64,000 nucleotides of DNA from Anseongella ginsenosidimutans (GTDB lineage: Bacteria > Bacteroidota > Bacteroidia > Sphingobacteriales > Sphingobacteriaceae), in NCBI GenBank assembly GCA_029268045.1, contig JAJUHF010000001.1, positions 1 to 64,000 of the forward strand. The letters run 5' to 3'. The position numbers and the translations under genes were made by a program. A model generated the notes under the pieces. It made no database searches. It worked only from the letters and a program-made list of their open reading frames with translations, and was not told the DNA's origin. Numbering within the stretch: position 1 is the stretch's first letter; each line of letters opens with the position of its first letter. This document shows, one piece after another, positions 6,213 through 24,909 of this stretch.

Positions 6213-7937
6213 CTATCGTCCTTGCCAGGCCGGATTCTGCGGCAGCTCTACGTCTTTATTTGTATCGATAACTGTTTGCGGAATGGGCCATACATTGTAA
6301 TCAAAGGTCAGCGTGGATTGGGCTTCCGGCCAGAACGCATACTGGCGGATCCGGTCAACGGCAATACTTCCACCCATCCGAAGCAAGGTATTCCACCGGC
6401 ATTCCTCGTAAACCAGTTCACGCGCTCTTTCATCCAGGATCAGGCTGAAATCATCGTCCAGGTCAGCTGCCGTAACCAGGTAAGTACAAGCCGCGCGCTT
6501 CCTAAGCAGGTTGATATCCGCAGCAGCGCCTTCCTTATTTCCCAGCCGCTGCTTCGCTTCGGCACGTAACAGGATCGTTTCGGAAAGACGGATGAAATAA
6601 TCGTCGCGGAATAAATTGCTTCGGTTCTCACCTTCGTCCAGGCCTGTGTATCTATCGGTTGCAATCTTACAGGATACCGGATAGCATAGGCTCCGGTTCA
6701 CCGTGTTGGTTGTTTCATCGGAGCTGCCTTCGTAAATTTCATTCCATGGCACCGGAAGCCCGAAATAAGGCGATCCGGGAACGTTTCCAATAAATGTCCT
6801 CCGAAAAACAATATCTGAGTTCCGCATATCGTCAGCCCATTTATCCTCATAAATGACGTCCCGTGTATACATGGTGGGTATTACCTGCGCAATGCCCCGC
6901 CCACCCACGTCTTCCAGGGTCCCGGTCAGGTGATCTTTGGCGCCATCGCGGAATACCGGTCCGTAGGTTCTGGAATAGGGCAACTTGGACTTGCCGTCCT
7001 CGGCGCGATAGGCCGCGTAATCGATCTGCAATGCCCATATGCATTCCCTGTTACCATCCTGATAATCGACATTCCCTTCCTGAAAGAGATCCCAGTAAAC
7101 ATTCCCCTGCGCTTCATCCTTTCGTGTGCCGAACCGGTCTTCCATCAGGGAGTAAATTCCTCCATCAATCACCTTATTCCCATAATTGACCGAATTGGTG
7201 TACGCCTCCTGAGCTTCCCCACCTTTTCCTTCCTGGTCAAGTTGGATTCCCAGGGCAAGGTATAACTGACAAAGGTTATGCTGCGCCGCGCCCCGTACGA
7301 GTCTTCCCCCCTGGCCGGTGGTTTCGGGCAGGTCATTTTCGATCGCGAGCAGCTCGTCAATCGCAAACTGGTAAGTTTCCACGCGGGTGGCCCGTTGAAA
7401 ATCGTAGCGCGGGGTGGTAGTCACTTCGGTAACCAGCGGCACGCCTCCAAAGAGTTCCCCCAGATTCCGATAAGCATATGCCCTGAAAAACCGCGCCTGG
7501 GCAATGGCGTACTGCTTTTCTTCTTCCGAAGACCAGCTTATTTTCGGTAGTTCGGCTGCGGCGATAGCCAGGTTGGCTTTCGAAATCATTTGGTACCAGG
7601 TACTATAGATATTGTAAAAAACGTTGTTGTCCGGATTGATGATCCCGTAATTATTGAATGTATTGCCTCGCCGGATACTGGGCACGTCGTACATATCGGT
7701 TCCATTCCCCCGGAATACGAAAATCCAGCCTTCCTCAGAAGGATTGGCCCATAGATCACGTAATTGCGAATACATCGATATAAGAACCTGATCTACCTGC
7801 GCCGAGGTAGAAAAGGCATTATCCACCGTATAAAAAGTGGAAGGACGTTCCGTAAGGAACTCCTTATCTGATTTGCATCCATGGATCATGGAAAGGGTCA
7901 ACAGGACGCATAGTGTATTCTTTAGCTTTTTCATCAT
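6213..7937 (-). CDS. SusD/RagB-family outer-membrane glycan-binding lipoprotein
   Basis: This 574-residue lipoprotein has a short signal and a lipobox ending in Cys21 (I-H-G-C). The usual SusD features follow: L-T-E-R-P-S near the start, Y-N-I-Y-S-T-W-Y-Q-M-I-S-K-A-N, and A-I-A-Q-A-R-F-F-R-A-Y-A-Y-R-N-L-G-E of the TPR-like helical core. The end carries I-L-L-R-A-E-A, E-C-R-W-N-T-L-L-R-M-G and W-P-I-P, as in SusD C termini. It would sit on the cell surface and cap the SusC channel. It lies 18 bases downstream of susC and directly before the GH106 gene, so it belongs to one operon with them. The substrate is probably a rhamnose-containing glycan, judged only from the adjacent enzyme. Confidence 0.95.
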   Translation of the reverse strand: MMKKLKNTLCVLLTLSMIHGCKSDKEFLTERPSTFYTVDNAFSTSAQVDQVLISMYSQLRDLWANPSEEGWIFVFRGNGTDMYDVPSIRRGNTFNNYGIINPDNNVFYNIYSTWYQMISKANLAIAAAELPKISWSSEEEKQYAIAQARFFRAYAYRNLGELFGGVPLVTEVTTTPRYDFQRATRVETYQFAIDELLAIENDLPETTGQGGRLVRGAAQHNLCQLYLALGIQLDQEGKGGEAQEAYTNSVNYGNKVIDGGIYSLMEDRFGTRKDEAQGNVYWDLFQEGNVDYQDGNRECIWALQIDYAAYRAEDGKSKLPYSRTYGPVFRDGAKDHLTGTLEDVGGRGIAQVIPTMYTRDVIYEDKWADDMRNSDIVFRRTFIGNVPGSPYFGLPVPWNEIYEGSSDETTNTVNRSLCYPVSCKIATDRYTGLDEGENRSNLFRDDYFIRLSETILLRAEAKQRLGNKEGAAADINLLRKRAACTYLVTAADLDDDFSLILDERARELVYEECRWNTLLRMGGSIAVDRIRQYAFWPEAQSTLTFDYNVWPIPQTVIDTNKDVELPQNPAWQGR

Positions 7938-11192: not shown

Positions 11193-12068
11193 ATGCAGAA
11201 TTACCATAAATACGTTTCGGTTAGCGAAGAGGACGAAGACTGGGGGCTTTACCTGGTTACCGCCGGACAGGCCCGCACCGACAAGGGCAGTCGCTATCCC
11301 GGAGGGGATCACCCGCGGGAATACCTTTTCAACTGGAATAGGGGACGGATTCTGAACGGACTCTATATTGTCTATGTGGCCAGCGGGAAAGGAATCTTCG
11401 AATCGGCCAATACGCCGGCCACCACCATCGGGGAAGGCACCTGTTTTCTTTTATTGCCTAACGTCTGGCACCGCTACAGGCCGGATCCGCATTACGGATG
11501 GCGCGAATATTGGATTGGGCTGCGGGGCAGCATCCTCCAGGATTGGATTGAAAAACAATGCATCCCGGCTGATAAAACCCTCTATCATACGGGAGTGAAC
11601 CATGAGCTTACTTCGCTTTTTAAAAACATCCTGGATTGCATCCAGCATAACCCGCCCGGGTTGCAACCGCTTGTTACCGGTATGGCGCTGCAATTGCTCG
11701 GAATAGTGCTTGGCACGGAAAAGAAGCAGTTGCCGCAAACCATCGAACAGAAGATTGAGTGGGCCAAGTCCTTTATCAACGACCATCTCGAACAGGATAT
11801 CCGCGGACCGCAACTGGCCAAGGAGTTGGCAATCAGTTATTCACTTTTCAGGAAACAATTCAAAAACCTTACAGGGAAGTCTCCTGCCCAATATCATCTG
11901 GACAAACGAATGGAGAAAGCGGGCGAATTTCTTTCCACTACCCGTTTATCGATAAAAGAGATCGCGTCGATCATGGGCTTCGATTCCATCTATTATTTTT
12001 CCAGGGTATTCCGGTCGCGATCCGGTCTTAGCCCGACCGCCTACCGGAAAAAGCATTTTCTCCATTAA
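11193..12068 (+). CDS. AraC-family transcriptional regulator (cupin sensor plus HTH)
   Basis: This 291-residue regulator has an N-terminal AraC-type cupin sugar-binding domain (about residues 20-160, with F-L-L-L-P-N-V-W-H-R-Y-R-P-D and Y-W-I-G-L-R-G). A C-terminal double helix-turn-helix domain follows (about 190-290, L-A-K-E-L-A-I-S-Y-S-L-F-R-K-Q-F-K, then I-K-E-I-A-S-I-M-G-F-D-S-I-Y-Y-F-S-R-V-F). It is divergent from the susC-susD-GH106 operon across 144 bases and is the obvious candidate regulator of it, probably sensing a released sugar. It closely resembles the second AraC regulator at 24016, which also faces a GH106 gene, so the two look like paralogues. It ends 19 bases before the convergent VCBS-repeat gene. 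Confidence 0.93.
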   Translation: MQNYHKYVSVSEEDEDWGLYLVTAGQARTDKGSRYPGGDHPREYLFNWNRGRILNGLYIVYVASGKGIFESANTPATTIGEGTCFLLLPNVWHRYRPDPHYGWREYWIGLRGSILQDWIEKQCIPADKTLYHTGVNHELTSLFKNILDCIQHNPPGLQPLVTGMALQLLGIVLGTEKKQLPQTIEQKIEWAKSFINDHLEQDIRGPQLAKELAISYSLFRKQFKNLTGKSPAQYHLDKRMEKAGEFLSTTRLSIKEIASIMGFDSIYYFSRVFRSRSGLSPTAYRKKHFLH

Positions 12069-16443: not shown

Positions 16444-18600
16444 TTACTCCAAATTGGCAGTTTGCCGCTGCCAAAGCCGGTAGTACGGTCCCTTCTGTCC
16501 CAGGAGTTCGAGGTGCCGGCCTGTTTCAACTACTCCTCCCCGGCCCAGCACAACAATCCGGTCGGCCTCCTGGATGGCAGGTAAACGGTGCGTGATGATG
16601 AGGATGGTTTTGCCTTTGTCGCGAAGCGAAAAGAAGGTGTTCTGAATCCGGCTTTCAGCAACCGCATCGAGGGAAGCGGTTGCCTCATCCAGTACCAATA
16701 CCTGCGGGTTACGGTACAAAACCCGGGCAATGGCTACACGCTGCCGTTGCCCCCCGGAAAGACGCGTGCCCCCTTCCCCAATACCGGTATGCAGACCTAA
16801 AGGAAGGGTTTCGAGGAAATCCATCATTCCCGCGCCCTTGCATGCGTAGAGGACCCGCTCCATATCAGGCGCGTATTCGCCCATTGCAATGTTTTCCAGT
16901 AGGCTTCCGGGTAAAAGGTGGATTTGTTGGGGGACAATCCCTACGATCCGCCGCAGGCGCTGGGGATCGACGTGCCGGATATTCATCCCGTTGATCGTTA
17001 TCGTTCCCGATTCCGGAGCATATATTCCCAGCAACAGGGAAGACAAGGTACTTTTACCCGAACCGCTTTCCCCGACCAGGGCTGTAATTTCACCTTCCGG
17101 AATGCGAAGCGTCAGGCCCCTAAAGACGGGAGATCGCGTTCCGTACCGGAACGTAATGTTATTGAAACAGATGGGACCGGCTTTTTCGGGACTGAATTGC
17201 GCTTGGCGGCTTACCGAATCAGGCTCCAGATCCATGATCTCAAATAGCCGCCCTGCTGCAATCAGGGCATCCTGCAGCGTTTGGTTCATTTCCACCAAGC
17301 GGGCTACCGGCGCGGTGAAGTAATTCAGCAGCGTGAAAAAGGAAAGCAATTCGCCCGGTGTCATTTCCCTTTCCAGCACAAACGCTGCCCCAGCCCAAAG
17401 AAGCAGTACCTTGAACAGGGACGAAATAAACTCCGAACCGTTTCCTGCCCACAGCGCATTCAAAGACGATGCGTAGCTGGTCCGGAGAAAACGGACCAGC
17501 CCTGCCTCGGTTTTCATCCCGACGAAATCCTCCACTCCGGACTGCCGGATGGTTGACGCTGCCTGGAGGCTGCTGACCAGCTGGCTTTCCAGCTCCGCAC
17601 TTTCCTCCATGATCCGTCGCTGGGTTTTCCTGTTCAAACTGTTTGAAACAAGGTAAACCGATGCGTACAAGGGAACGATCAGCAGGATCAGAAGCGCCAG
17701 TTTCCAATAATAGGTAAACATAAGCCCGAAGGAAAACAGCAGCATGCACAGGTTTACCCCTACCCCCACCAGCACATCGTTGATAAATACTCTTATTTTG
17801 AACGCATCATTTACGCGCGAAACAAGCTCTCCGGTACGCATCGAGTCCACAAAGGATTGCGGAAGCCTGAATAAATGCCGGTAGTAAGCAAGAATCAGCC
17901 GGGCATCAATCAATTGTCCGCTTCGAAGCGTAAGTACCCCTTTTATATGGTTTATAAAGGCCTGTACAATCAACAAGACCAGCAGTACCGATCCCATCAG
18001 GTTCAGCAGATTGGTATTTCCTGAAGGCAAAACATGATCGATGATTTTCTGGACGAAAACCGACAGCGACAAGCCCAGCACAGTATAAAGGACAGCCCCA
18101 AAAAGCGCCTGCAATAGAATCGCACGGTGCGGTTTAAGCAATTGCAGGAAGCGAATCCAAACCGATCCTTCCATGTTGCCGGGCTGAAAACTTTCGGAAG
18201 GAACCAGTATCACCAGGACGCCGCTCCATTGTTCCACGAATCTTTCGCGCGGGACCTTATGGATCCGTCCATCCGCCGGATCCATGATCCGGATATACCG
18301 GGGCGAGACGCCGACGATCACCACAAAGTGAAAATAGCCCGCTGCGAGCACGACGTGTGCCACCGCCGGAAGCGGAATACGGCTTAAGCTTTCGTAGGAA
18401 CCCTTCACCCCTCTTGCGGAAAATCCCAGGCGTTGCGCTGCATCCAGCATACCCCGTACATTGGTTCCCCTGGAATCGGTGGAAGCATATGCGCGGACGG
18501 TTGCCAGGGGAACCCGAAGTCTGTAAAAGGCGGCTACCGAAGCAAGACACGCCGCGGCGCAATCGGTCCGGTCGTGTTGTTTAACCTTTATTCTTCTCAT
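16444..18600 (-). CDS. Peptidase-containing ABC exporter (C39 bacteriocin-processing type)
   Basis: This 718-residue transporter should cut double-glycine leaders and export the mature peptide. Residues 1-135 form a C39 peptidase with Gln8, catalytic Cys14 (T-D-C-A-A-A-C), His91 (Y-F-H-F-V-V-I) and Asp107 (I-M-D-P-A). The six-helix membrane domain spans about 155-440. The nucleotide-binding domain carries Walker A at 510-518 (G-E-S-G-S-G-K-S-T), signature L-S-G-G-Q at 614-618, Walker B with Asp638-Glu639, and switch His671, so all functional residues are present. The gene overlaps the upstream HlyD-type adaptor gene by 20 bases. Upstream, on the same strand, lie two small peptides with double-glycine leaders, the natural substrates. 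Confidence 0.95.
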   Translation of the reverse strand: MRRIKVKQHDRTDCAAACLASVAAFYRLRVPLATVRAYASTDSRGTNVRGMLDAAQRLGFSARGVKGSYESLSRIPLPAVAHVVLAAGYFHFVVIVGVSPRYIRIMDPADGRIHKVPRERFVEQWSGVLVILVPSESFQPGNMEGSVWIRFLQLLKPHRAILLQALFGAVLYTVLGLSLSVFVQKIIDHVLPSGNTNLLNLMGSVLLVLLIVQAFINHIKGVLTLRSGQLIDARLILAYYRHLFRLPQSFVDSMRTGELVSRVNDAFKIRVFINDVLVGVGVNLCMLLFSFGLMFTYYWKLALLILLIVPLYASVYLVSNSLNRKTQRRIMEESAELESQLVSSLQAASTIRQSGVEDFVGMKTEAGLVRFLRTSYASSLNALWAGNGSEFISSLFKVLLLWAGAAFVLEREMTPGELLSFFTLLNYFTAPVARLVEMNQTLQDALIAAGRLFEIMDLEPDSVSRQAQFSPEKAGPICFNNITFRYGTRSPVFRGLTLRIPEGEITALVGESGSGKSTLSSLLLGIYAPESGTITINGMNIRHVDPQRLRRIVGIVPQQIHLLPGSLLENIAMGEYAPDMERVLYACKGAGMMDFLETLPLGLHTGIGEGGTRLSGGQRQRVAIARVLYRNPQVLVLDEATASLDAVAESRIQNTFFSLRDKGKTILIITHRLPAIQEADRIVVLGRGGVVETGRHLELLGQKGPYYRLWQRQTANLE

Positions 18601-19759
18601 ACGGATTCAGCCAGTCGTTTACATCGTCGAACAGCAGTTGGAATAGCGTCCGCCGGGTGACAGGAAATCGCGCCTGGAGCGTCATCCCCTGCTTCAATCT
18701 GCCCTGATATCCGTTCTTCAGCGCCAGCACCTTGTTTCCCAATTTACAGCGCACCTCAAAAAAGGGATTCCGGTCCGGGCCCTGGAATACATCCCCTGAA
18801 ATATCGGAAACCACGGCCTGTATCGCTCCCCACTGCCGGTAGTTGAACGCGTCGATCTGTAGGTGAACCGGCATGCCGCGCCGGATCAAACCGATGTCTG
18901 CGGGCGGGATGGCGATCCGGGCAAGGAGCCCCGAATCGGGGGAGAGGAGTACAGCCTGTTCCCCCTGATCAAAAAAAGCTCCCGCATGGAGGCCGTCCAT
19001 CTCCTGCAGGATCCCATCTGCCGGCGCGCGCACTTCGTATGATCCACGTTGGGTATGGAGCTTTTTTTCGGCTGAAGCCAATTGCTGGAGTTCCTGGCTC
19101 AGTTCATTCAGGTCAAGTTGCCAGCGGCTGCCCTGTTCCTGATATACTAAATTGAGGCGGTTATGCACCTCCTGAAACGCCATTCTGTGTTTATCAAATT
19201 CCATAGCCGCCACCACCCCCGCTTCAAACAAGTACTCGTAACGCTGGCAACTCGCCTCTGCTTCCCGTAATTCTTCATGGATCCCGCGTGCCCGCTGCTC
19301 GAACAGGTCGTACTGCCGGGCGTATACCGCCGACCGGAGCGGCCCGGGCGGGGTTAATTTTCTTTTATATATCCAGGCGGTCAGTTTTTTCAGGTCGGTG
19401 ATCCGGCCTTGTACAGCAGCCTTTTTTTGCCGGAGGTACACAAGATCCTCTTCAAGCAGGGAAGATTCCAGGGTAAACAACACGTCTCCTTTGGCCACGG
19501 CCTGATTTTCAGTCACGTGGACGGTTGAAACACGACCCGCAACGGGCGCCTTTACCCAGGTGCGCTGCCGGGAGCCGGTCAGGATACCGTTCCCTTTGAC
19601 AACGACCTGCACGGAAATAATAAGCAGCGCCCCTGAGGCAAGGACGAGACACAATAGCACGACCACATACAACAGCCCGGAACGTTTATCCATGCGTTTA
19701 AAATGATGCTCATAGGTATACTCCACCAGTTCGGCTGGCAGCATCCGTGTATTTTTCAT
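18581..19759 (-). CDS. HlyD-family periplasmic adaptor of the peptide exporter
   Basis: This 392-residue protein has one N-terminal membrane helix (about 28-50), then a lipoyl/barrel-sandwich half-motif (V-K-A-P-V-A-G-R-V-S-T-V-H-V-T-E-N-Q-A-V-A-K-G-D). A long coiled-coil region follows (about 105-235), then the second half-motif (V-R-A-P-A-D-G-I-L-Q-E-M) and a beta-barrel end. Such adaptors link an inner-membrane ABC exporter to an outer-membrane TolC-type duct; no TolC gene is present nearby, so a duct encoded elsewhere must be used. It overlaps the ABC gene by 20 bases, indicating one transcript. An intrinsic terminator sits only 20 bases before its ATG, so it is probably expressed at a lower level than the precursor peptides. 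Confidence 0.93.
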   Translation of the reverse strand: MKNTRMLPAELVEYTYEHHFKRMDKRSGLLYVVVLLCLVLASGALLIISVQVVVKGNGILTGSRQRTWVKAPVAGRVSTVHVTENQAVAKGDVLFTLESSLLEEDLVYLRQKKAAVQGRITDLKKLTAWIYKRKLTPPGPLRSAVYARQYDLFEQRARGIHEELREAEASCQRYEYLFEAGVVAAMEFDKHRMAFQEVHNRLNLVYQEQGSRWQLDLNELSQELQQLASAEKKLHTQRGSYEVRAPADGILQEMDGLHAGAFFDQGEQAVLLSPDSGLLARIAIPPADIGLIRRGMPVHLQIDAFNYRQWGAIQAVVSDISGDVFQGPDRNPFFEVRCKLGNKVLALKNGYQGRLKQGMTLQARFPVTRRTLFQLLFDDVNDWLNPYEKNKG

Positions 19760-19864: not shown

Positions 19865-19969
19865 CTAATGGAATATCCGGTCCCAGTTCCGGAAAATTGC
19901 CAGGAACAGCAAAAAAGATAACACGACGATGAGCAGTGGATACCATTCGTTTTTCTTTAGAATTTTCAT
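19865..19969 (-). CDS. 34-residue single-helix membrane peptide (possible immunity peptide)
   Basis: This short gene starts at ATG 19969, 10 bases after the stop of the first precursor peptide. It encodes a 34-residue protein with a basic N terminus (M-K-I-L-K-K-N), a single strongly hydrophobic helix (about residues 10-26) and a polar tail with R-N-W-D. It has no double-glycine leader, so it is not an exporter substrate. Position between precursor genes and transporter, small size and one membrane helix are typical of immunity peptides of class II bacteriocins, but no homologue is recognised and the role is inference. A longer frame upstream would overlap the precursor gene and is unlikely. 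Confidence 0.55.
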   Translation of the reverse strand: MKILKKNEWYPLLIVVLSFLLFLAIFRNWDRIFH

Positions 19970-19979
19970 CGTCCCAGAA

Positions 19980-20168
19980 TTAACAGGAGCATGCCGCACC
20001 ATTAGCCGCTGCATCGAACATGGCCGTGGGTATCCCATGGATGGCCGCCATCCCCAGGTACCTGAAAACCCGGCCAACATCGTATGCAAAGCCTTTTCCT
20101 CCGCCTAACTCTACGACCTCGGTATCTTTAAGTAGCTGTACTACTCCGTTTTCGATTAAGTTTTCCAT
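19980..20168 (-). CDS. Double-glycine leader peptide A (bacteriocin-like precursor)
   Basis: This 62-residue precursor has a leader ending in G-G-G at 22-24. Counting back from Gly24, positions -12 Leu13, -8 Glu17, -7 Val18, -4 Leu21, -2 and -1 Gly match the C39 recognition pattern L-x3-E-L-x2-I-x-G-G. Cleavage would release a 38-residue product beginning K-G-F-A-Y-D-V, glycine/alanine-rich and amphipathic, and ending C-S-C. A strong AGGAGG ribosome site lies just before ATG 20168, in keeping with high expression. It follows peptide B by 18 bases. It is too short for homology to decide whether it is an antibacterial peptide or a signal; two different peptides side by side suggest a two-peptide class IIb-type bacteriocin. 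Confidence 0.8.
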   Translation of the reverse strand: MENLIENGVVQLLKDTEVVELGGGKGFAYDVGRVFRYLGMAAIHGIPTAMFDAAANGAACSC

Positions 20169-20186
20169 TGTCTTCCTCCTGCCTGT

Positions 20187-20372
20187 TCAACGTTTACAGG
20201 CTCCCGACAGGCCTGCTTTAAAATTATCCCAATCGGCAATGATCTCCGTGAAAGCGGAAATACATACACCGGCACCAACAGCCGCCCAGAAAACCAGACC
20301 ACCATGACAGGAAATCATTTCATCCCGGGTCAGACCGACCAATCCGGCCGTATCAGTACTTGCGTTTTTCAT
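20187..20372 (-). CDS. Double-glycine leader peptide B (bacteriocin-like precursor)
   Basis: Starting at ATG 20372 gives 61 residues: a 25-residue leader ending L-T-R-D-E-M-I-S-C-H-G-G, an excellent C39-type leader (-12 Leu, -8 Glu, -7 Met, -2/-1 Gly). The 36-residue core has a hydrophobic Gly/Ala helix (W-A-A-V-G-A-G-V), then E-I-I-A-D-W-D-N-F-K-A-G-L. Two cysteines (37 and 59 of the precursor) could form a disulphide. Cores with D-W-D-x-F-K-x-G recur, from memory, in small bacteriocin-like peptides of Bacteroidota. A frame start at 20420 adds 16 residues and would make an unusually long leader, so 20372 is preferred although its ribosome site is weak. The gene lies first in the peptide operon, behind a good Bacteroidota-type promoter. 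Confidence 0.82.
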   Translation of the reverse strand: MKNASTDTAGLVGLTRDEMISCHGGLVFWAAVGAGVCISAFTEIIADWDNFKAGLSGACKR

Positions 20373-20455: not shown

Positions 20456-20486
20456 TAAAGGTAGGAGGATCAGATTAAAGGTCCAA
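20456..20486 (-). promoter_or_regulatory. Promoter of the bacteriocin-like peptide operon
   Basis: On the minus strand TTG (20486-20484) is followed after 20 bases by TACCTTTA (20463-20456), matching the Bacteroidota pattern TTG / TAnnTTTG in seven of eight -7 positions. The predicted start point is near 20450, giving a leader of about 75 bases to peptide B. It is divergent from the XRE regulator promoter 37 bases away, so one bound regulator could control both. Confidence 0.6.
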
Positions 20487-20522
20487 GAACTTTCTTAAAC
20501 CATTAGGTTTTAAATTATAGCT

Positions 20523-20570: not shown

Positions 20571-20798
20571 ATGAAAGACGAAGCCATTTGTACAAGCAGA
20601 GTAATTGTCAAACGGATTCGGAAGATCCGTGAATCGAAGCACTATTCCCAGGAGTTTATGGCCCGAAGACTGGGGATTTCCCAGGAAGCCTACAGCAGGA
20701 TGGAATTGAGTGAAACCACCCCCTCCATTAAAAGACTGTTGTCCATCGCCCAGATTCTGGAGATTACCCCGGACGAGCTGCTGTTTACCAGCTCATGA
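20571..20798 (+). CDS. XRE-family helix-turn-helix regulator
   Basis: This 75-residue protein is almost entirely a Cro/CI-type HTH domain (about residues 10-68: I-R-K-I-R-E-S-K-H-Y-S-Q-E-F-M-A-R-R-L-G-I-S-Q-E-A-Y-S-R-M-E). It has no sensor domain. It is divergent from the peptide operon and shares a short intergenic region with it, so it probably controls peptide production. I chose ATG 20571; a TTG at 20541 lies inside the predicted promoter. Its end overlaps the convergent GH106 gene by 14 bases. Confidence 0.85.
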   Translation: MKDEAICTSRVIVKRIRKIRESKHYSQEFMARRLGISQEAYSRMELSETTPSIKRLLSIAQILEITPDELLFTSS

Positions 20799-24015: not shown

Positions 24016-24909
24016 ATGATCAGTTATTATAAATATCTTCCGGTAACACAAGATGCCGTAGACTGGGGTTTATGTGTCACTGCCGCGGGTTGCGGCCGCA
24101 TCGAGCATGCCGATACCTATCCCCGCCCCGACCATCCGGCACACCATTATTTTGACTGGAATAACGGCCGGGCGCTTCAGGAATACCAGTTGATCTATAT
24201 CCCCCGGGGCGCAGGAGTCTTTGAATCCGAAAGCGCCTCCCGGTTAAAGGTCGACGAAGGAACGATCATCTTCCTTTTTCCCAACGAGTGGCACCGCTAC
24301 AAACCCGACCCGGGTACCGGCTGGGACGAATACTGGGTGGGGTTCACCGGAAGCATTATGGACAACCTGGTGAAAAAGCGCTTTTTCGAACCGAAGCGCC
24401 CCTGTATGCCCATCGGGGTAAATGAACAGGTCGTGAGCCTTTTTGATCAGATCATCACCCACACAAAGGAAGAAAAATCCGGATACCAGCCGCTGATATC
24501 GGGCACGGTGGTCCATCTATTGGGGCTGGTCCATTCCATTTCCAGAGGGAATCGATTCGAAGACCAGCAATCCATGGTTGAAAATATGGTAAACAAAGCC
24601 CGCATTTTGCTCCGCGCGAATGTGGAACAGCAGATATCGCCGGAAAAGGTCGCCAACGAACTGGGACTAAGTTATTCCTGGTTCCGTAAAACCTTCAAAG
24701 CCTATACGGGAATTGCGCCTGGCCAGTACCTGATCCAGCTGAAGATTGAAAAAGCGAAAATGCTGCTTTCCGACCGATCGAAGTCTGTAAAGGAAATCGC
24801 CTATAATCTGAATTTTGATTCCAGCTTCTACTTTTCCAAGCTTTTTAAGGAGAAAACGGGCTTGCCGCCGGAAAAATACCGCAGGAAGATGTTCCCCCAG
24901 GAGAAGTAA
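24016..24909 (+). CDS. AraC-family transcriptional regulator (cupin sensor plus HTH)
   Basis: This 297-residue protein has the same build as the regulator at 11193: an N-terminal cupin-like sensor (F-L-F-P-N-E-W-H-R-Y-K-P-D, Y-W-V-G-F-T-G) and a C-terminal AraC double HTH (V-A-N-E-L-G-L-S-Y-S-W-F-R-K-T-F-K, V-K-E-I-A-Y-N-L-N-F-D-S-S-F-Y-F-S-K-L-F-K). It is divergent from the GH106-type gene with only about 60 bases between starts, so it is the probable local activator. A strong hairpin terminator follows immediately. It is also the nearest AraC protein to the CAGGA direct-repeat site at 25051-25068, so it cannot be excluded as the binder of that repeat. Confidence 0.92.
   Translation: MISYYKYLPVTQDAVDWGLCVTAAGCGRIEHADTYPRPDHPAHHYFDWNNGRALQEYQLIYIPRGAGVFESESASRLKVDEGTIIFLFPNEWHRYKPDPGTGWDEYWVGFTGSIMDNLVKKRFFEPKRPCMPIGVNEQVVSLFDQIITHTKEEKSGYQPLISGTVVHLLGLVHSISRGNRFEDQQSMVENMVNKARILLRANVEQQISPEKVANELGLSYSWFRKTFKAYTGIAPGQYLIQLKIEKAKMLLSDRSKSVKEIAYNLNFDSSFYFSKLFKEKTGLPPEKYRRKMFPQEK

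Follow-up and report, generated by a model that had tools for sequence, protein, structure and literature searches.

Five adjacent genes on the minus strand of the window, the 64,000-nucleotide stretch of Anseongella ginsenosidimutans DNA analysed here, probably constitute a single bacteriocin unit of the two-peptide (class IIb-like) kind, with a candidate immunity protein that may act by mimicry; we put the probability of this reading at about 0.7. Most known two-peptide bacteriocins come from Gram-positive bacteria. The genes follow the order pepA, pepB, the gene of a 34-aa single-transmembrane (TM) protein, a HlyD-type gene and a C39-ABC exporter gene, with gaps of 18 bp between pepA and pepB and 10 bp between pepB and the TM gene, and a 20-bp overlap of the exporter and HlyD genes. 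The features of the cluster and its upstream region are given below, where G001 denotes a same-genus genome.

20187 to 20372, minus strand: pepA, 61-aa double-glycine precursor (leader of 25 aa, core LVFWAAVGAGVCISAFTEIIADWDNFKAGLSGACKR of 36 aa)
19980 to 20168, minus strand: pepB, 62-aa double-glycine precursor (leader of 24 aa, core KGFAYDVGRVFRYLGMAAIHGIPTAMFDAAANGAACSC of 38 aa)
19865 to 19969, minus strand: 34-aa single-TM protein MKILKKNEWYPLLIVVLSFLLFLAIFRNWDRIFH, candidate immunity protein (G001 ortholog, family profile, conserved position)
18581 to 19759, minus strand: HlyD-type membrane fusion (accessory) protein, 392 aa (matches to PF13437/PF16576, TIGR01843 and TIGR01000)
16444 to 18600, minus strand: C39-peptidase ABC exporter (PCAT), 718 aa (Q8, C14, H91, D107; Walker A at 510, LSGGQ at 614)
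20571 to 20798, plus strand: XRE/Cro-type HTH regulator, 75 aa, divergent (PF01381, 1.6e-15)
20497 to 20510, no strand assigned: inverted repeat AAACC-N4-GGTTT, possible operator, within the block conserved with G001
20456 to 20486, minus strand: promoter-like TTG-N20-TACCTTTA, with equal spacing in G001

The original prediction placed two different double-glycine precursors here beside a C39 exporter with an intact Cys/His/Asp triad, and it held in these particulars. Both small ORFs are present on the minus strand with complete leaders. The pepA leader, MKNASTDTAGLVGLTRDEMISCHGG, carries L-12, E-8, M-7, G-2 and G-1, and the pepB leader, which ends in LLKDTEVVELGGG, carries L-12, E-8, V-7, L-4, G-2 and G-1, matching the predicted Leu, Glu, hydrophobic residue and glycine pair. 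The pepB cut was placed after the third Gly because the same-genus ortholog reads AGG before the cut and RGFAYDV after it. The cores differ as had been stated: the 36 residues of pepA include two Cys and DWDNFK, and the 38 residues of pepB end in CSC. Their computed average masses are 3788.35 (pepA) and 3924.51 (pepB) in the reduced form, and 3786.34 and 3922.49 with one disulfide. Considering the leader register, the intact triad and the conservation, PepA and PepB are predicted to be C39-processed double-glycine precursors, as originally proposed.

When the leader rule was applied across the entire window, to 438 ORFs of 35-115 aa, only pepA and pepB reached the threshold leader score of at least 6. 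Shuffles of these ORFs gave 0.59 leader-like ORFs expected by chance, which makes a leader by itself a weak argument, and the figure speaks for reading the small genes as leftovers or chance ORFs. That reading, to which we give almost no probability, is refuted by conservation: amino acid identity to the G001 orthologs is 66% for pepA and 48% for pepB, the promoter region is conserved, and relatives occur in several families. Substitution rates against G001 point the same way. The pepA core (dN 0.105, dS 2.3, NG86) is under strong purifying selection; the pepA leader gave dN 0.40 and dS 0.88, and the pepB core gave dN 0.29 with saturated dS (NG86). Judging from sequence, we take pepA and pepB to be real genes because of this conservation and their position beside the sole PF03412 match; their start codons were fixed by comparison with G001. 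A Pfam search with the window peptides returned zero matches, and an NCBIfam search returned a single weak and unrelated one. The AF2 model of pepA has helices at 25-46 and 48-55 with a break at D47 (mean pLDDT 69), and that of pepB is of low confidence (mean pLDDT 51).

The exporter is the sole PF03412 match in the genome (a 3.06 Mb assembly, 92% complete). A C39 peptidase domain (PF03412, 1.5e-28) with the Cys/His/Asp triad (C14, H91, D107) and the additional Gln (Q8) is fused to ABC_membrane and ABC_tran domains, which retain Walker A, LSGGQ and Walker B. It aligned with PCAT1 (PDB 4ry2) over its full length (E 1.7e-158), including the catalytic residues, although its substrates differ from those of the peptidase-containing ABC transporters PCAT1 and ComA. 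C39 exporters from other genera of the window's family (G004, G019, G035 and others; 30-41% identity) were set aside as other types, and none of those surveyed had a neighbouring peptide that satisfied the leader rule.

The whole cluster is kept in G001 (locus L031; pepA at 7041-7226, pepB at 6829-7017), where the HlyD counterpart is 53% identical. An upstream block of about 43 bp, which contains AAACC-N4-GGTTT and TTG-N20-TACCTTTA, is common to both genomes. The Bacteroidota promoter consensus is TTG / TAnnTTTG, and the element in the window is close to it. The XRE regulator is also kept, as the upstream sequence of G001 has a readable antisense ORF with its motifs. Two AraC-like regulators, alike in sequence, flank the cluster region on the plus strand (11193-12068 and 24016-24909), and each adjoins carbohydrate-type genes.

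When one genome per species was scanned, relatives of pepA were found in Arthrospiribacter, Algoriphagus, Marinifilum, a MAG labelled Bacteroides sp., Balneolaceae and two Cyclobacteriaceae; a family search added G737. A plasmid search with one pepA relative gave zero matches. An intact leader with a DWDNFK core is present in eight loci (window, L031 of G001, L047, L048, L049, L050, L052 and L113), and in all eight a pepB-type peptide adjoins it, with an FAYDxG core in the form GFAYD(V/I)G or SFAYDIG. Two different GG-leader precursors thus stand side by side, as in class IIb, in every intact locus; L052 has the order B-A and the other seven A-B. The pairing is seen in the window's family and as far away as Cyclobacteriaceae and Marinifilum; in further genera of the window's family, more distant A-B pairs precede CPBP-type genes. 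L051 and L053 hold degraded or leaderless copies. In L051 (7945-8548, Balneolaceae), a frame-disrupted pepA and a pepB remnant lie beside an intact TM mini-protein, and no C39 gene was seen within the 16 kb examined. A different arrangement was observed in G640, where L141:503-3051 encodes about 15 near-identical GG peptides in tandem (VIPIFLAGVAVGILIGKALD).

Absence of the precursors beside homologous exporters had been named as evidence that would count against the prediction; instead, both the same-genus ortholog and the relatives named above have them. Of the two options originally offered, a two-peptide bacteriocin agrees with the pairing in eight of eight loci and with weak matches of the wider families to lactococcin G-alpha, lactococcin G-beta and plantaricin K, while a bacteriocin plus a signal peptide is disfavoured. 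GG leaders are also used by pheromones, and one pepB-type relative weakly matches the BlpC pheromone model (3.4e-4, below the cut-off and mostly through the leader). However, cores of 36 and 38 aa are long and of membrane-helix character, the two peptides constantly co-occur, and the large ORFs listed beside the cluster included no histidine kinase, so that one pheromone with one bacteriocin seems very improbable. The strict pairing therefore favours one two-peptide bacteriocin over this combination. Alternatively, PepA and PepB could be two independent one-peptide bacteriocins that share an exporter and show no synergy, as PCATs can take several substrates and many loci of relatives have several GG peptides beside a single C39 exporter. 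This is unlikely, considering that the two types adjoin in all intact loci in either order and that the wider families match two different lactococcin G subunits.

The matches in question are below cut-offs and partly run through the leader: wider pepB-type peptides matched lactococcin G-alpha at 4.3e-5, and wider pepA-type peptides matched lactococcin G-beta at 0.0056 and TIGR03949 (lactobin A/cerein 7B) at 0.0009-0.012. Against a cut-off of 37 bits for NF038035 and NF038034, relatives scored 23.5 and 16.9 bits, and against 21.5 bits for TIGR03949 they scored 18.9 and 15.3 bits; the window peptides matched none of these models. Because of these cut-offs, the matches were used as analogy only, and the cluster is described as working like lactococcin G, not filed in its families. 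Over the core stretch, the pepB profile found lactococcin G-alpha (2jpj, E 0.61) and PlnK (2keg, E 0.76) among 177,635 PDB sequences, a likeness that is suggestive. GxxxG-like motifs of class IIb are present in the helical pepA core as small-xxx-small in eight of eight sequences (AF2 helix 25-46) and in pepB as AYDVG in the sequence, with an AF2 model of low confidence. Taken together, the comparative evidence appears to support the bacteriocin reading well.

In the two-peptide bacteriocin that we favour, PepA and PepB would be synthesised as leader-bearing precursors and cleaved behind the double glycine. Export would run through the C39-ABC protein and HlyD, presumably together with a TolC encoded elsewhere in the genome. 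The cores would be helices packed via small-xxx-small contacts that jointly target the inner membrane of related Bacteroidota, possibly at a receptor, and so may kill in synergy. The divergent XRE protein probably controls the cluster promoter. A lactococcin-G-like pair family across several Bacteroidota families would offer a set of narrow-spectrum agents against a phylum that dominates in the gut and the environment.

A third small gene inside 19865-20372, absent from the original prediction, encodes the 34-aa single-TM protein. It occupies the position of the immunity gene in the five-gene class IIb layout, and its G001 ortholog is MKIIEKNEWRFLVIILISFLTFYVIFKNWDFIWY. A 40-aa TM ORF of G001 was rejected as the ortholog and is a second TM mini-protein (L031:6483-6605, minus strand), absent from the window, whose tail YHLGRLVGSF recalls AYDVGRVFRF of the pepB core. 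A candidate immunity gene directly follows the pair in all eight intact loci: a TM mini-protein alone in the window, G001, L049 and L050; a CPBP/Abi-type gene alone in L113; and both in L047, L048 and L052. CPBP/Abi Rce1-like (PF02517) proteins are present in L048, L052, L056 and L142, and by motif in L047 and L113, and none was found among the five cluster genes of the window.

Immunity is the preferred role of the 34-aa protein because the class IIb minimal cluster consists of precursors, immunity, transporter and accessory genes (PMC6957408), and because CbnZ provides a precedent. CbnZ, the experimentally proven immunity protein of carnobacteriocin XY, is described there as the shortest known of class IIb, with 42 aa and, likewise, a single TMD (PMC6957408). 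All five positions of the gene set are filled in the window, the 34-aa gene being the putative immunity gene. It could instead assist export, act as a regulator or be a third, leaderless component of the toxin, with immunity encoded elsewhere or absent. In bacteroidetocin clusters, toxin activity depends on an extra TM protein and an immunity protein seems to be lacking (PMC6671954), and the pepA core profile has a weak likeness to LdrD, a small toxic peptide (E 0.72). On the other hand, the gene directly follows the pair and alternates with the CPBP/Abi class of immunity genes, the TM mini-protein of L051 is intact beside the disrupted pepA in a locus where no C39 gene was seen, and orphan TM mini-proteins occur, as immunity genes do. 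A role other than immunity is thus a serious possibility, but one at less than even odds.

The TM mini-protein family is related to the pepA C-terminus at the level of sequence profiles. Pair-adjoining TM mini-proteins end in NWD.LK.LL or similar, and leaderless TM homologues end in DWENFKxGLxGxPP, as pepA does. A pepA-core profile matched nine leaderless single-TM ORFs (E 3.7e-8 to 2.3e-4), whereas 18,056 reversed or shuffled controls gave no match at E<=1. Conversely, a profile of eight pair-adjoining TM mini-proteins found TM ORFs of this kind, ending in DWDDFKRGL and DWGNFKRGL (1.4e-6 and weaker; controls started at 0.7). Most leaderless DWENFK ORFs first surfaced in whole-genome pepA-profile searches (E of about 1e-5 to 2e-3 per genome), which biases the set towards this tail but not towards the single-TM, K-rich, leaderless form. 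When TM tails were matched to GG cores by locus, the median rank was 0.24 against 0.5 expected (22 TM mini-proteins), which gives moderate support to locus-specific matching and is not the main evidence. Other GG peptides are also echoed by leaderless TM mini-proteins in relatives (e.g. L138 and L142); in L142, one lies 62 bp past a GG peptide whose motif parallels its own (NSIGNIMYELGRTLG and NELGDIAYNIGNDIG).

The sequence relation to pepA is the ground for proposing mimicry. The 34-aa protein would stay in the inner membrane of the producer, with its charged N-terminus inside and its NWD tail towards the periplasm, and would give immunity most likely by taking the place of PepA with PepB or the receptor. 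In its full form, a leaderless relative of the subunit keeps the helix and the DWxxFK tail, has lost the small-xxx-small face and caps the complex; this proposal is tentative and rather doubtful. The pepA helix has 33% Gly+Ala with small-xxx-small in eight of eight sequences, in contrast with 6% and five of 15 in the TM mini-proteins. Two observations count against mimicry: of the shared motif, the protein of the window retains just NWD.IF, its link to pepA running only via its family, and several DW(E/D)NFK-type TM mini-proteins occupy loci without pepA. Literature searches on mimic immunity returned nothing on point, and the mode of action of class IIb immunity proteins is called a mystery in the excerpts of PMC6957408, which make no statement on how CbnZ relates to CbnX or CbnY in sequence. 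The novelty of the cluster seems to lie chiefly in this mini-protein, whose relation to one peptide would provide a concrete, cheap and testable mechanism for class IIb immunity; if true, mimicry may serve immunity widely among Bacteroidota.

Among known systems, the lactococcin G, enterocin 1071 and enterocin C group shares two adjacent GG precursors with helical small-xxx-small cores, a small immunity-type membrane protein, an accessory protein and a C39-ABC exporter. The window differs in its Gram-negative Bacteroidota host, the HlyD-type accessory protein, two Cys per core and family profile scores under cut-offs, and its immunity candidate has 34 aa and one TM segment, whereas LagC of lactococcin G has 110 aa and four TMDs. 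The Bacteroidota class II peptides reported in PMC6671954 are single-peptide bacteroidetocins. They share GG leaders, a C39-ABC exporter and Cys-containing cores of about 40 aa, but have leaders of 15-16 aa, four Cys in A and B, and a thiol oxidoreductase in most loci, with no immunity protein found (PMC6671954). In contrast, the window has two peptides with leaders of 25 and 24 aa and no oxidoreductase among its five genes. Cdz of Caulobacter crescentus is also a Gram-negative two-protein bacteriocin with type I secretion, GxxxG motifs and a small TM immunity protein (PMC5380434). Its proteins, however, are glycine-zipper proteins of 84-86 aa that aggregate on the cell surface and carry RTX-like secretion signals, and its immunity protein CdzI has three predicted TMDs, compared with one in the window candidate (PMC5380434).

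Outside the window, small HTH_11-like regulators beside the C39 clusters of relatives (L047:5699-6019, L048:7547-7873, L049:4046-4375, L057:908-1222 and others) end in a double-glycine leader motif and a short tail, mostly of about 11-20 aa, for example LERSAFREITGG followed by CAFFRNNFATTFFV. Literature searches on double-glycine tails of regulators returned nothing on point. The leader motif scored at least 6 in 13 of 26 regulators, compared with 0.3% of shuffled tails, and the exporter perhaps cuts or senses its own regulator.
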